Shown here one piece after another: positions 53,826 to 58,968 of a stretch of DNA of 64,000 nucleotides. The notes below the pieces were generated by a model that ran no database searches, had not been told where the DNA came from, and worked only from the letters and a program-made list of their open reading frames with translations. Each line of letters opens with the position of its first letter. Positions within the stretch are counted from its first letter, which is position 1. The position numbers and the translations under genes were made by a program. Source of the DNA: Geodermatophilus pulveris (lineage in GTDB: Bacteria > Actinomycetota > Actinomycetes > Mycobacteriales > Geodermatophilaceae); the NCBI RefSeq assembly GCF_900188375.1, contig NZ_FZOO01000001.1, positions 1-64,000 of the forward strand, read 5' to 3'.

Positions 53826-53867
53826 GTGACCCCCCGTTGCGCGCGGCCGCGCCGACCCCGCCGGTGA
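53826..53867 (+). CDS. Leaderless 13-codon mini-ORF overlapping murD2
   Basis: The frame [13 protein letters not shown] ends in a TGA that overlaps the murD2 GTG (GTGA). It begins exactly where a leaderless transcript from the TAGAGT promoter would start. The peptide is Arg/Pro-rich with one Cys. It probably loads ribosomes for murD2 by termination-reinitiation; a regulatory role through rare stalling is possible. An alternative is that murD2 starts at the in-frame TTG at 53837. Confidence 0.4.
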
Positions 53868-55192
53868 GGCTCGCCGAGCTGGCCGGGCGCCGGGTCGGCG
53901 TCTGGGGTCACGGGCGGGAGGGCCGAGCCGCCGTGCGCGCGGCGCTGACCGCCGGGGCGGCCGGGGTCGTCGTCGTCGACGCCGTCCCGCCCACGGACCT
54001 GCCGATCGGCGTGCGGGCCGGCACGGACGTCGCCGGGCTGGCCGGCTGCGACGTGGTGGTGCGCTCGCCGGGCATCAGCCCCTACCGGGAGGACGCCCGG
54101 GCCCTGGCCGCCCGGACCACCCTGACCTCCGGCACGGGCATCGCCCTGGCCGAGTTCGCCGCGCGGGGCGTGCCCACGCTGTGCGTCACCGGCACCAAGG
54201 GCAAGAGCACGACCAGCGCGCTGGCCGCCGTCGTGCTGCGCGCGGCCGGCCGCCCGGCGGTGCACGCGGGCAACATCGGCACCCCGCTGCTCGACGTCCT
54301 CCTCGACGACGCCGTGGCGGGAGGGACGTCGCTCGTCGTCGAGGTGTCCAGCTACCAGGCCGCCGCGGTCGAGGGCTGGTCCGGGTGGGGGGCGATCACC
54401 TCGCTGTCCCCCGAGCACCTGGACTGGCACGGCGACGTGGCCACCTACTACCGCGACAAGCTGCACGTGTTCGCCGGCTGCGGCCCCGGGTCGGTGGTCG
54501 TCTCCCCGCAGGCCCGCCCGGTCGCGGAGACCCACCTGGACCCGGCGGTGCTGGCCGACCCGGCCGACGTCGTCCGCCCGGAGCAGGCCGCCGGCTTCCG
54601 GCCCGAGGGGCTCGCGGGCGTGCACAACGTCGCCAACGTGCACGTCGCGCTGGCCGCCTGCGTGCGCATGGGCGTGGACCTCGACCGGCACGCCGACGCC
54701 GTCCGCGCCGCGGTCGCCGGCTTCCGGGCGCTGCCGCACCGGCTGTGCCCGGTGGCCACCCGGGACGGCGTCACCTTCGTCGACGACACGCTGAGCACCA
54801 CCCCGGTGTCGGTGCGCGCGGCCATCGACGCCTTCGCCGGGCAGCAGGTGACCCTGATCGCCGGCGGGCAGGACCGCGGGCTGGACCACGCCGAGCTGGC
54901 CGGCGCGGTCGTCGCCCGCGCCGGCACCGTCCGGGTGCTCACCGTCCCGGACACCGGCGCCCGGTTCGCCGCCGACCTCCGCGCCGCCGCGGCCGCCGCC
55001 GGCGTGGACCCCCCGGTCACCGAGACCGGCTCCCTGGCCGAGGCCGTCGCCGAGGCGCTGCGGACGGCCCGCCCGGGCGGCCTGGTGCTGCTCTCGCCGG
55101 GCGCGCCCAGCTACAACCGCTTCCGCAACTACGAGGAGTTGGCACGGACCTATGAGCAGATCCTCCTCGACGCCGGGGCGACCCGTGTCTGA
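53864..55192 (+). CDS. murD2: UDP-N-acetylmuramoyl-L-alanine--L-glutamate ligase MurD2
   Basis: A 442-residue Mur ligase. The N-terminal Rossmann has [16 protein letters not shown]. The central ATPase has the P-loop GTKGKST at residues 110-116, [23 protein letters not shown] and [19 protein letters not shown]. The C-terminal domain has [20 protein letters not shown] and [19 protein letters not shown]. Pairing with murL identifies it as MurD2, which adds L-Glu rather than D-Glu to UDP-MurNAc-L-Ala. The GTG overlaps the mini-ORF stop. Confidence 0.88.
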
Positions 55193-56504
55193 CGCGTTCG
55201 TCGTCGCCGGCCGCTCCGTCGACCCCGCGACCGGCGAGGCGGCCTTCACCTTCCGGCTGGCCGGCGACGAGTTCACCGAGCGGCTCACCCTCGACCCGGC
55301 GCTGCTGGCCGGCGCCGACCCGGCCCGCCTGGACGCCGCCCTGGACCTCGTGCACCTGGTGATGGGCACCAGCTACTACAAGCTGCGGGCCCCGGGCCGG
55401 GTCGTCGTGCAGCGGCCGGTGAGCAAGGCGCAGGCCGCCGTCGCCGAGGCCGCCTACACGCACGGGCTCGGCGAGTTCGCCGCGGTGAACCGGTTGCCGG
55501 TGCCGCACGAGGTGGCCTTCGACGTCGAGCTGCGCGACGAGCTCCCCGCGGCCGGCGGGGTCGGGGACGGCGGCGCGCTGCTCCCGGTGGGTGGTGGCAA
55601 GGACTCCGCCCTGGCGCTGGTCGTGGTCACGCCGGCCACCGCGCTGGCGGTCAACCCGACCGACGCGCAGCGCGACGTCGCCCGCGCCGCCGGGGTGCCG
55701 CTGATCGGCGTCCGCCGCCGGCTGGACCCGCTGCTCGGCGAGCGCACCCGCGCCGGCGGGCTGAACGGGCACGTGCCGATCACCGCGATCAACTCCGCGA
55801 TCTCCACGCTGGTCGCCGTCCTCGGCGGCTTCGACCCGGTGGTCTTCGCCAACGAGCGGTCGGCCGACGAGGAGACGCTGACGATCAACGGGGCGCGGGT
55901 GAACCACCAGTACTCGAAGTCCCACGAGTTCGAGCGGGTGTTCGCCGCGGCCGCGGCCGAGGTGGGCGTGGGTTACTTCAGCCTGACCCGGCAGCTGTCG
56001 GAGCTGGCCACGGTGGCCGCGGTGGCGGCGCTGCCCGGCCTGCGCGGCGAGATCCTCAGCTGCAACCGGTCCTACACCCAGGCGCACATGGGCGGGGAGG
56101 CCACCCAGCGGTGGTGCCTGCGCTGCGACAAGTGCCTGTTCACCTTCCTCTGCTTCGCGGTCTTCCTGACCCCGGACGAGGCGGTCGGCATGTTCGGCGG
56201 CGACCCGCTGGCCGACCCCGCCCTCGCCGACGGCTTCCGCCGGCTGTGGGCCACCGAGAAGCCGTTCGACTGCGTGGGGGAGCGGGCCGAGAGCGCCGCG
56301 GCGATGGCCCACCTGGCGGGCAGCGCCGCGTGGGGCGGGCACGCCGTCGTCCGCGCGCTGGGGGCCGAGGCCGCCTCCAACGCCCGAGTCACCGGCGCCA
56401 CCGTCGAGGGCTTCCTGGCCCCGCGCGGGGAGCACTCGGTGCCCGACCGGTACCTCGCGGCGCTGCAGCGGGTGCTCGCGGAGGCGCGCCCGCCGGTGCG
56501 GTGA
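55185..56504 (+). CDS. murL: UDP-MurNAc-L-Ala-L-Glu epimerase MurL
   Basis: A 439-residue PP-loop enzyme that epimerises the terminal L-Glu of UDP-MurNAc-L-Ala-L-Glu to D-Glu using ATP. GGGKDS at residues 136-141 is the PP-loop, followed by [20 protein letters not shown] and [32 protein letters not shown] contributes the Cys cluster typical of MurL. It overlaps murD2 by eight bases (GTG chosen; ATG at 55152 is an alternative). The pair replaces free D-Glu in peptidoglycan precursor synthesis. Confidence 0.9.
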
Positions 56505-57388
56505 GCGGCCCGCTCGGGGCCCTCGAGCGGGCGCTGCTGCGCCGCGGCGCCCGCGACGTGACCGGGCTGGCGGCCGCCGTCCCGGGGCAGTTCGCCCGGC
56601 TGGCCGAGGAGCTGGCCGCTGCCGGGCGGGCCGGCACCCGGGTCGGCCTGGTGACCGGCGTGCACATCGCCTGGGCGCCGGCCCCGGCGGCCGAGACCGA
56701 CGGCCCGGTCGGCACCGCCGTGCTGGCCGCCGCGCTCGCCCGGGTCGGCGCGCAGCCGGTGGTGCTCACCGACGAGCCGTGCGCGCAGGTCACCGCCGCC
56801 TGCCTGGCGGCGCTCGGCGGCCGGCCGCCCGAGGTGCTGCCGGTGTCCGCCGGCGAGGAGGAGGTGGCCGCCCGCGTCGCGGCGCTGGGGCTGACGCACC
56901 TGGTGGCCGTCGAGCGGCTCGGCCCGAACGCCGCCGGGCGGGTGCTCACCATGCGCGGGTTCGACGTCACCGGCAGCACCGCGCCGCTGCACGCGGCCTT
57001 CACCCTGCCCGGCCTGGTGACCGGGGCGGTCGGCGACGGGGGCAACGAGATCGGCATGGGCAACGTGCCGGCCGGCGTGGTCGCCGCGTCGGTCGCGCAC
57101 GGCGACCGGATCGCCTGCCGGGTGCCGGTGGACGCCCTCGTGGTCGCCGGCACCTCCAACTGGGGCTGCGCCGGGCTGGTCGCCGCGCTCGCCCGGCTGG
57201 TCCCGGCGCGGCGGGACGCGCTCGCCGCGCTGCTGGACCCGGCGGTCGACGCGCGGGCGCTCGCCGCCGCCACCGCGGCCGGCGCGATCGACGGCGTCAC
57301 CGGGCGCCCGGGGCCCAGCGTGGACGGCGTCCCGGTGGCCGGGTACGCCGACCTGCTCGACGGACTCGCCGCGCTGGCCCGGGCATAG
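56501..57388 (+). CDS. D-glutamate cyclase-like protein (DUF4392)
   Basis: A 295-residue protein of the DUF4392 / D-glutamate cyclase C-terminal family. VGLVTGVHIAWAPAPAAETD, GTAVLAAALARVGAQPVVLT and AVERLGPNAAGRVLTMRGFD lead to TGAVGDGGNEIGMGNVPAGV (core at residues 178-187) and VVAGTSNWGCAGLVAAL. Animal homologues convert D-Glu to 5-oxo-D-proline. The GTG overlaps the murL stop (GTGA), so it is made with MurD2 and MurL. It probably clears or recycles free D-Glu; the direct activity is unproven. Confidence 0.85.
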   Translation: MSGPLGALERALLRRGARDVTGLAAAVPGQFARLAEELAAAGRAGTRVGLVTGVHIAWAPAPAAETDGPVGTAVLAAALARVGAQPVVLTDEPCAQVTAACLAALGGRPPEVLPVSAGEEEVAARVAALGLTHLVAVERLGPNAAGRVLTMRGFDVTGSTAPLHAAFTLPGLVTGAVGDGGNEIGMGNVPAGVVAASVAHGDRIACRVPVDALVVAGTSNWGCAGLVAALARLVPARRDALAALLDPAVDARALAAATAAGAIDGVTGRPGPSVDGVPVAGYADLLDGLAALARA

Positions 57389-57397: not shown

Positions 57398-57862
57398 GTG
57401 CCCACCCCGCACCCGCCGCACGACGCCGCACCGCTGGCCGAGCGGCTGCGCGCCCAGGGGCTGCGGCTGACCAGCCAGCGGCAGCGGGTGCTGGCCGCCG
57501 TCGCCGGCCTCGAGCACGCCACCCCCGAGGCCATCGCCACCCGGCTGCGCGAGGAGGCCGGTCCCGACGGCGCCGCTCCGGACACCTCGACGGTCTACCG
57601 GACCCTGGAGCTGCTGGAGCGGCTCGGCCTGGTCTGGCACACCCACCTGGGCAAGGGCGCGCCGGTCTACCACGCCGCCGAGCACCCCCACCTGCACGTC
57701 GTCTGCGCCGGCTGCGGGGCGATCTCCTCGGTCGACCCGGCACTGCTCGACTCCGCCGCGGAACGTCTGGCGGCCGAGCTGGGTTTCTCCCTGGACGTGG
57801 GGCACGTCGCGCTGTCGGGCACGTGCCGCGCCTGCCGCGACCGAGTCGGAACGGAGCCCTGA
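57398..57862 (+). CDS. Fur family metalloregulator (Fur/Zur type)
   Basis: A 154-residue regulator. The winged helix is LRLTSQRQRVLAAVAGLEHA, PDTSTVYRTLELLERLGLVW, and the metal/dimer domain has HPHLHVVCAGCGAISSVDP and SGTCRACRDR, two CxxC pairs forming the structural zinc site. YHAAEHPHLHVVC supplies the regulatory His cluster. Zur or iron-sensing Fur cannot be separated by sequence alone. Its stop overlaps the ygfZ-like ATG (TGATG). Confidence 0.88.
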   Translation: MPTPHPPHDAAPLAERLRAQGLRLTSQRQRVLAAVAGLEHATPEAIATRLREEAGPDGAAPDTSTVYRTLELLERLGLVWHTHLGKGAPVYHAAEHPHLHVVCAGCGAISSVDPALLDSAAERLAAELGFSLDVGHVALSGTCRACRDRVGTEP

Positions 57863-58968
57863 TGTCCACCCCGAGCCCCCTGCTGTCGCGCCCCGGCGCC
57901 GTCGCCGTCGAGGGCGGCTCCGTCCCGGCGCACTACGGCAGCCCGCTGCGCGAGCAGCGCGAGCTCGCCGAGGGTGCCGCGCTGGTCGACCGCGGCGACC
58001 GCGACGTGCTCGCCGTCCCGGGTGCCGACCGGCTGACCTGGCTGCACAGCCTGCTCACCCAGCACCTGGAGCGGCTCGGCGACGGCACCGGGACGGAGGC
58101 CCTCGGGCTGTCGCCGAACGGGCACGTCGAGCACCACCTGGTCCTCGCCGAGCTGGCCGGCACCACGTGGGTCGACGTGGAGCCCGGCACCGGCGCCGTC
58201 CTGCACGGCTACCTGGAGCGGATGCGGTTCATGCTCCGCGTCGAGCCGGCGCTGGTCACCGGCTCCTGGGCGCTGCTCACCCTGGCCGGCCCCCGGGCGG
58301 ACGCCGTGCTGGCCGCCGCCGGCCTGCCGGTGCCCGCGGCGCCGTACGCCGTGCTGCCGCTGGACGGCGGCGGCTGGGTGCGCCGGATGCCGCCGATCGG
58401 CGACGGCGCCCCCGCCGTCGACCTGCTCGTGCCCCGCGCCGAGCTGGCCGACCGCACCGACGCGCTGGTCGCCGCCGGTGCGTCCCCCGCCGGGGCGGAC
58501 GCCTACGAGGCGCTGCGGGTCGAGGCCCGCCGCCCCCGCCTGGGCGTCGACACCGACCACCGCACCATCCCCAACGAGACGCCCTGGCTGACCGGCGCCG
58601 TGCACCTGGCCAAGGGCTGCTACCGGGGCCAGGAGACCGTCGCCCGCGTGCACAACCTCGGCCGCCCGCCCCGGCGGCTGGTGCTGCTGCACCTCGACGG
58701 GCTGGCCGAGCAGCTGCCCGAGGCCGGGACGCCGGTGCTGGCCGGCACCCGCACGGTGGGCCGGGTGGGCACCGTCGTCCGCCACCACGAGCTCGGCGTC
58801 GTGGCCCTCGCGCTGGTCAAGCAGTCCGTCCCGATGGACGCCGAGCTGACCGTGGCCGGTGCCCGCGCCGCGATCGACCCCGACGACGCCCCCGCCGCGC
58901 TGGACGACACCGTCGCCGCGGCGCGGGAACGGGTCCAGGCCGTGCGGTCTGGGACCATGCCCCGGTGA
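57862..58968 (+). CDS. ygfZ: Folate-binding YgfZ/GcvT-like protein
   Basis: A 368-residue protein. The GcvT-like fold has LTWLHSLLTQHLERLGDGTG, GLSPNGHVEHHLVLAELAG and the hallmark KGCYRGQETVARVHNLGRPP (K-G-C-Y-x-G-Q-E). Such proteins use tetrahydrofolate to help repair or assemble Fe-S clusters. It is coupled to the Fur-family regulator, so expression may follow metal status. Confidence 0.9.
   Translation: MSTPSPLLSRPGAVAVEGGSVPAHYGSPLREQRELAEGAALVDRGDRDVLAVPGADRLTWLHSLLTQHLERLGDGTGTEALGLSPNGHVEHHLVLAELAGTTWVDVEPGTGAVLHGYLERMRFMLRVEPALVTGSWALLTLAGPRADAVLAAAGLPVPAAPYAVLPLDGGGWVRRMPPIGDGAPAVDLLVPRAELADRTDALVAAGASPAGADAYEALRVEARRPRLGVDTDHRTIPNETPWLTGAVHLAKGCYRGQETVARVHNLGRPPRRLVLLHLDGLAEQLPEAGTPVLAGTRTVGRVGTVVRHHELGVVALALVKQSVPMDAELTVAGARAAIDPDDAPAALDDTVAAARERVQAVRSGTMPR

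Follow-up and report, generated by a model that had tools for sequence, protein, structure and literature searches.

What happens to free D-glutamate (D-Glu) in a bacterium that is expected to make the D-Glu of its cell wall only on a bound precursor, and why should a gene related to an animal D-glutamate cyclase lie directly behind the genes of this pathway? The question is raised by a window of 64,000 nucleotides from Geodermatophilus pulveris (positions 1 to 64,000 of contig NZ_FZOO01000001.1), in which the genes murD2 (53864..55192), murL (55185..56504) and a gene for a DUF4392 protein (56501..57388) follow one another on the plus strand. Judging from sequence comparison, the explanation that we favour, with a little more confidence than doubt, is that the DUF4392 protein and a DUF1445 protein encoded elsewhere in the same genome form a split, Mn-dependent D-glutamate cyclase, which would remove free D-Glu in cells without the glutamate racemase MurI.

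The first gene encodes a Mur ligase (Pfam Mur_ligase_M and Mur_ligase_C) that scores 242 bits on TIGR01087, over the cut-off of 212. In an alignment with Xanthomonas sacchari MurD2 and Escherichia coli MurD, its residues E184, R338 and P415 correspond to E197, R358 and P433 of X. oryzae MurD2, and Y417 stands at the position of F435, whereas E. coli MurD has D, K, A and L at these four specificity-linked positions. That is, Glu and Arg are present at the two positions that set the specificity for L-Glu: the double change E197D/R358K makes MurD2 a D-Glu ligase, and D-Glu is hardly used by X. oryzae MurD2 (PMC8788868). The second gene matches NF041275 (MurL) only, at 308 bits and E 6e-92, which is under the cut-off of 700 set for it. 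This model bears Xanthomonadales in its name, and none of the 112 genomes of the family Geodermatophilaceae in our sample reaches its cut-off. The motif GGGKDS occupies residues 136-141 of the protein, and G137, G138, D140 and S141 are invariant in 43 aligned MurL proteins. An earlier sequence-only reading of the window had named the protein a PP-loop MurL; the MurL part is borne out by the NF041275 match, whereas PP-loop is a label for the GGGKDS motif, and no Pfam domain was detected in this protein. Compared with known MurD2/MurL systems (XOO_1320 and XOO_1319 of X. oryzae; Micromonospora, Salinispora), G. pulveris has the same overlapping murD2 and murL genes and the same key MurD2 residues, in a genome with no detected murI or D-amino-acid transaminase gene. 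It differs in the extra DUF4392 gene and in the gene order, murD2-murL as against murL-murD in X. sacchari. The family is not named in the published list of actinobacteria with MurD2/MurL (PMC8788868).

Free D-Glu could also come from other enzymes, and the source genome (26 contigs, 99.99% complete) was searched for them. No match to MurI was found by a profile search that, as a control, gave matches in 10 of 14 well-known genomes, 8 of them over the cut-off. Only one MurD-type match in the genome lies over the cut-off, and it is MurD2 of the window; of six further matches to the MurD model, four are in the division and cell wall (dcw) region, where other models name murE, murF and murC, and two, on contigs C8 and C15, were left unexamined. 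In the dcw cluster murE, murF, mraY, ftsW, murG and murC each score over their model cut-offs, and there is no murD between mraY and ftsW. The sole class-IV aminotransferase is IlvE, with 499 bits against 34 bits on the D-amino-acid model (cut-off 277). Neither MurI nor a D-amino-acid transaminase was thus found in this genome by a search that did not look at DapF-type racemase activity, which is reported in Chlamydia (PMC5885031). Overall, MurD2/MurL takes the place of MurI and MurD in this genome, as had been proposed from the window; the functional murI and canonical murD that the sequence-only reading had suggested looking for, as evidence against itself, were not found.

The same exclusion was observed throughout the family. 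MurL is present in 38 of the 112 genomes (none over the model cut-off) and MurI was counted in 70, namely 69 over the cut-off and G017, whose MurI is in two pieces, the larger with 144.6 bits against the cut-off of 146.65. The two occur together in no genome, and the four genomes with neither are all less than 80% complete. In G017, which has no MurL, the two pieces (G017:C1:939554-940289) adjoin each other but differ in frame; this may be an assembly error or a broken gene. Another genome, G060 (contig 389), is the only one of 26 Geodermatophilus genomes with MurI over the cut-off and without MurL, and may keep the ancestral state or be misplaced.

The MurL proteins of the family form two groups that lie far apart in sequence, with an identity of about 35-39%. 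In the Geodermatophilus/Trujillonella group, the order murD2-murL-(DUF4392)-fur-ygfZ holds in 14 of 14 loci checked; in the other group, both loci checked (L215 of G024 and L216 of G104) have the order murL-murD2, and neither fur nor ygfZ is matched in the stretch. Two distant groups with different gene orders suggest two separate acquisitions of MurD2/MurL in the family. L215 and L216 belong to other genera of the family, and their MurL is about 36-38% identical to that of the window. In addition, MurD2 of L215 has Asp, not Glu, at the position of E197, while the three remaining positions carry Arg, Pro and Phe; L-Glu specificity may therefore follow a different rule there.

To our knowledge, D-glutamate cyclase is known as a characterised gene only from mammals, and a study reports that Mn stimulates the mouse enzyme when it consumes D-Glu. 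The mouse protein converts D-Glu to 5-oxo-D-proline, and knock-out mice accumulate D-Glu (PMC5339696); in vertebrates DUF1445 and DUF4392 are fused (PMC5132392). The third protein of the operon (295 amino acids) matches PF14336, 'D-glutamate cyclase-like, C-terminal', with E 2.6e-60, and indeed contains the motif GDGGNEIGMG. It is a relative (E 3e-21) of the crystallised TON_0340 of Thermococcus (4dwz, 5gkx, 5gl2-5gl4), which belongs to the same DUF4392 family by sequence and has all six metal ligands in common with it: E65, D67, E138, D179, E183 and D275 (56693..57325, plus strand) align with E59, D61, E115, D157, E161 and D246 of the ligand list in PMC5132392. These six acidic residues are invariant in all 30 aligned DUF4392 proteins, including that of the window. 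TON_0340 is described as a probable Mn-dependent phosphatase, and a MurL context is not to be expected in its archaeal host.

When G. pulveris is compared with mammalian DGLUCY (mouse 9030617O03Rik), both domains of the latter are found to be encoded: the DUF4392 domain with its acidic metal site in the window, and DUF1445 as a separate gene (G000:C16:460476-460904, where G000 is the source genome). They are not fused in one protein, as the window protein contains PF14336 only. What is one fusion in mammals is here two genes on different contigs, in the wall operon and in a 5-oxoproline (pxp) locus, whose products are predicted to form a pair. Since the mammalian enzyme is a fusion of both domains, DUF4392 is not necessarily a cyclase by itself. 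The sequence-only reading, which had taken the DUF4392 protein for a D-Glu cyclase, was therefore half right, having missed the other half, which is encoded beside the pxp genes in the same genome.

Where does the DUF4392 gene occur? Within the family, PF14336 is found in 17 of the 112 genomes; all 17 have MurL, and in all of them the gene lies directly downstream of murL on the same strand. For a wider view, we have taken the best 80 of at least 570 confirmed MurL matches as named loci. A DUF4392 gene lies near murL in five of these, L049, L050, L051 and L055 from Geodermatophilaceae and L076 from a metagenome-assembled genome (MAG) of Acetobacteraceae, and no DUF4392 is nearby at the other 75. 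We have also examined 50 wider MurL genomes, drawn from the 80 loci minus L049-L055 and 23 others (of these, L101 and L107 belong to the family): DUF4392 is found anywhere in three of them and is adjacent to murL in G112 only, the genome of this MAG. A general three-gene operon is rejected on these counts. In the order of G112 (probably Acetobacterales; 299 genomes), PF14336 is present in 27 genomes at 30 places, all of which were retrieved, and in its class (probably Alphaproteobacteria; 385 genomes) in 10 genomes at 12 places; in each sample one place adjoins MurL, judged within flanks of 1.5 kb, that of G112, with no further case. Among plasmids, 18 records have DUF4392 and four have MurL, with none common to both. 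In this order, one genome has three tandem DUF4392 genes (L150, L158 and L160; G350:C4:361266-364082); G1186 and G906 have two DUF4392 genes each.

The genes at L076 are arranged as DUF1445-DUF4392-murL-murD2 on one strand. In the DUF4392 tree, which kept four fragment rows flagged by the program (AcWT_L145, Alpha_L229, sub2_L132 and sub2_L221), the L076 protein clusters with those of its own order, apart from Geodermatophilus (SH-like approximate likelihood ratio test, SH-aLRT, 89, below the program's starred level). As it groups with its own order, the neighbourhood of murL and DUF4392 seems to have arisen twice independently.

In the source genome, DUF1445 is on another contig than murL. 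There, DUF1445 and a GntR regulator are divergent from an Nramp transporter gene (pxpT-like), pxpA (PF03746), pxpB (PF02682) and pxpC (PF02626). The latter four are common to the known pxpTABC and ycsFG-kipIA loci, in which DUF1445 has no counterpart. PxpABC is known for the L form of 5-oxoproline; a role with the D form would be an extension made here. The pxp-side transporter is a Mn importer in Bacillus subtilis (PMC10448178), and a study of Corynebacterium glutamicum takes a relative of it for a 5-oxoproline carrier (PMC13274462). An argininosuccinate-synthase-like gene also stands beside DUF1445 and pxp, at 4915-6360 of L193 (G000:C16:454000-467000) and likewise in G056 (L195).

Of the 112 family genomes, 44 have DUF1445. 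Each of the 17 DUF4392 genomes is among them, and in these 17 the gene is at most 7.4 kb away from pxpA (at most 5 kb in 16); this association is new here. As pxpA is present in 111 of the 112 genomes, its presence alone is uninformative. Within Geodermatophilus, DUF1445 is found in 14 of 14 genomes with DUF4392 and in 1 of 12 without it, and both genes map to one branch of the MurL tree, inside which G058 has neither. Fisher tests give 5e-10 and 1.6e-6, but they take no account of relatedness, and these values do not serve as probabilities here. Across the order of G112, 15 of 16 loci of the window's type have DUF1445 immediately upstream of DUF4392, as against none of the 14 loci of the other subfamily; in the wider class sample, no DUF1445 was found within 1.5 kb of the best window-type places. 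In addition, genes for DUF1445, PxpA, DUF4392 and a class-IV aminotransferase follow one another on a Pseudoalteromonas plasmid.

The gene linkages, the conserved metal ligands, the mouse enzyme and the data on the pxp-side transporter together lead us to favour the split, Mn-dependent cyclase. Under this reading, MurD2 would add L-Glu to the precursor and MurL would then epimerise the bound residue; that is, the D-Glu of the wall would be made only while bound. Free D-Glu, coming from wall turnover or uptake, would be a poor substrate of MurD2 and, as there is no MurI, would not be returned to L-Glu by that racemase. The DUF4392 half from the murL operon would join the DUF1445 half from the pxp locus and, with Mn, convert D-Glu to 5-oxo-D-proline, which might leave the cell or be used further, possibly giving L-Glu, the substrate of MurD2. 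The gene content, the linkages, the conserved metal ligands and the mutual exclusion of MurL and MurI in the family are observed, whereas we infer that the two halves act jointly, what substrate and metal they require, in which direction they work and what becomes of the product; a return of 5-oxo-D-proline to L-Glu would lie one step further on. It is doubtful that wall-derived D-Glu goes back to L-Glu through the split cyclase and the 5-oxoproline pathway as a full substitute for the missing direction of MurI.

Several observations weigh against the split cyclase. DUF4392 is missing from 21 of the 38 family genomes with MurL, and in 47 of the 50 wider MurL genomes, a set with many MAGs, it was found nowhere. 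The linkage noted by the sequence-only reading stands within the family (17 of 17) and once in an alphaproteobacterium, but a general three-gene unit is not supported; the lack of any conserved linkage elsewhere, which that reading had named as fatal to itself, was not observed. Furthermore, the 17 family cases amount to essentially one gain. Of the 44 family genomes with DUF1445, 27 lack DUF4392, and in 24 of these DUF1445 is again no more than 5 kb away from pxpA, so it has some role without DUF4392; in G050, which has no DUF4392, it is 17 kb from pxpA. The test of a joint gain of DUF4392 and DUF1445 on the MurL tree had two independent pairs only, and although their direction is consistent, the co-occurrence cannot reach significance there. 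Seven of the 38 MurL genomes (G024, G026, G042, G047, G058, G097 and G109) have weak matches to the glutamate racemase family of 20-30 bits. These are far below the cut-off of 147, are absent from the result for the source genome and occur in many MurI genomes too; they were not counted as MurI and are probably other racemases. For the metabolism itself, no enzyme converting 5-oxo-D-proline to the L form has been identified, the parts of the literature seen contain no activity data on the bacterial DUF1445/DUF4392 pair, and the available text on TON_0340 reports a weak Mn-dependent phosphatase with no assay on D-Glu (PMC5132392).

The role that DUF1445 has of its own leads to another explanation, in which DUF4392 alone acts on D-Glu or on a wall fragment containing it, by hydrolysis, epimerisation or amide chemistry, and DUF1445 belongs to pxp independently. 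The 24 genomes just mentioned fit this, and so do some plasmids on which DUF4392 adjoins racemase-like genes and genes for amino-acid or other transporters, without DUF1445 in the stretch shown. We nevertheless consider it unlikely, since all 17 family genomes with DUF4392, and nearly all window-type loci in the order of G112, have DUF1445 as well, and since both domains are fused in vertebrates (PMC5132392). As for such plasmids, on L219 (Bradyrhizobium) and L220 (Paraburkholderia) the DUF4392 gene is followed by a gene annotated as alanine racemase, and genes for RidA and for an amino-acid ABC transporter or a gamma-glutamyltransferase lie close by; this is another D-amino-acid setting.

It is quite unlikely that the linkage is an accident of gene transfer, by which a foreign DUF4392 landed behind murL and was kept by descent, although the distribution of the gene would permit this. 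Among 396 evenly drawn Actinomycetota, PF14336 is over the cut-off only in the source genome (a match in G691 reaches 20.8 bits, the cut-off being 27.9). The distribution of DUF4392 over the MurL tree requires two changes, which we interpret as a single gain, on a branch with good support, that accounts for all 17 family cases, and one loss (G058). Moreover, the gene is cleanly present or absent between murL and fur, and fur directly follows murL in 11 of 11 checked Geodermatophilus loci without DUF4392. What speaks against an accident is that 17 of the 18 clade members have retained the gene, with a ratio of non-synonymous to synonymous substitution rates (dN/dS) of about 0.3-0.5 (5 pairs), as compared with about 0.2-0.4 for MurL (4 pairs). 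This indicates constraint on the gene, if weaker than that on MurL. The adjacency, in reversed order, in the Acetobacteraceae MAG argues in the same direction, given the grouping of its DUF4392 described above.

The main known rival is based on the weak phosphatase activity of TON_0340. This protein binds Mn tightly and hydrolyses AMP best of 20 compounds, with a kcat/KM of 1.9e2 per M per s; the hydrolysis is easily detected with Mn added and lost in two active-site mutants, and the authors call the activity across the panel 'very low', yet detectable (PMC5132392). That DUF4392 is a Mn-dependent phosphatase clearing AMP or pyrophosphate from the ATP-consuming MurL reaction would suit both the AMP that MurL forms (PMC8788868) and the six ligands kept in the window protein, but it is the reading to which we give least credence, because the panel activity is so low, the majority of MurL genomes do without DUF4392, and the pairing with DUF1445 and pxp is left unexplained.

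If D-Glu from the wall is indeed brought back to L-Glu by this route, the murL operon would serve the synthesis of the D-Glu residue as well as part of its recycling. Half of an animal-type enzyme in the wall operon suggests how bacteria without detected synthesis of free D-Glu handle the D-Glu left from walls. The locus offers a concrete and cheap way to learn what bacteria free of glutamate racemase do with free D-Glu, and a bacterial setting for D-glutamate cyclase in which the domains are separate genes and their roles separable. It also indicates that a wall D-Glu pathway has been swapped wholesale within one actinobacterial family, probably twice. The parts were already known, while their combination is new: no description of murL with DUF4392 was found among the listed open-licence PubMed Central (PMC) titles and abstract beginnings, subscription papers being outside this scope, and the terms 'MurL' and 'D-glutamate cyclase' appear once each in PMC7215955.

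The three genes overlap on the plus strand, as the sequence-only reading had observed. Its start of the unit at 53826 does not hold, as the GTG there belongs to a different frame, one that a stop closes after 13 codons; the frame of murD2 runs from TTG 53837 to 55192, with GTG 53864 as the likelier start. For murL, GTG 55185 and ATG 55152 are both candidate starts, with the end at 56504; taking GTG 55185, the overlap with murD2 is 8 nucleotides (55185-55192). The DUF4392 gene starts with GTG 56501 and shares 4 nucleotides with the stop of murL. After a gap of 9 nucleotides follows a gene for a Fur-family regulator (57398..57862, plus strand; PF01475, E 5e-18), and on its last base begins, with ATG 57862, the gene for a YgfZ/CAF17-like folate-binding protein (57862..58968, plus strand; PF01571, E 3e-28), the last of the block conserved in the 14 loci checked. 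Finally, some record titles look wrong: L107 (SPQJ01000005.1, 'Bacillus sp. AZ43') is a member of the family, and L056 and L057 are titled as MAGs of 'Bifidobacterium breve', on whose contigs MurL is 42% identical to that of the window.

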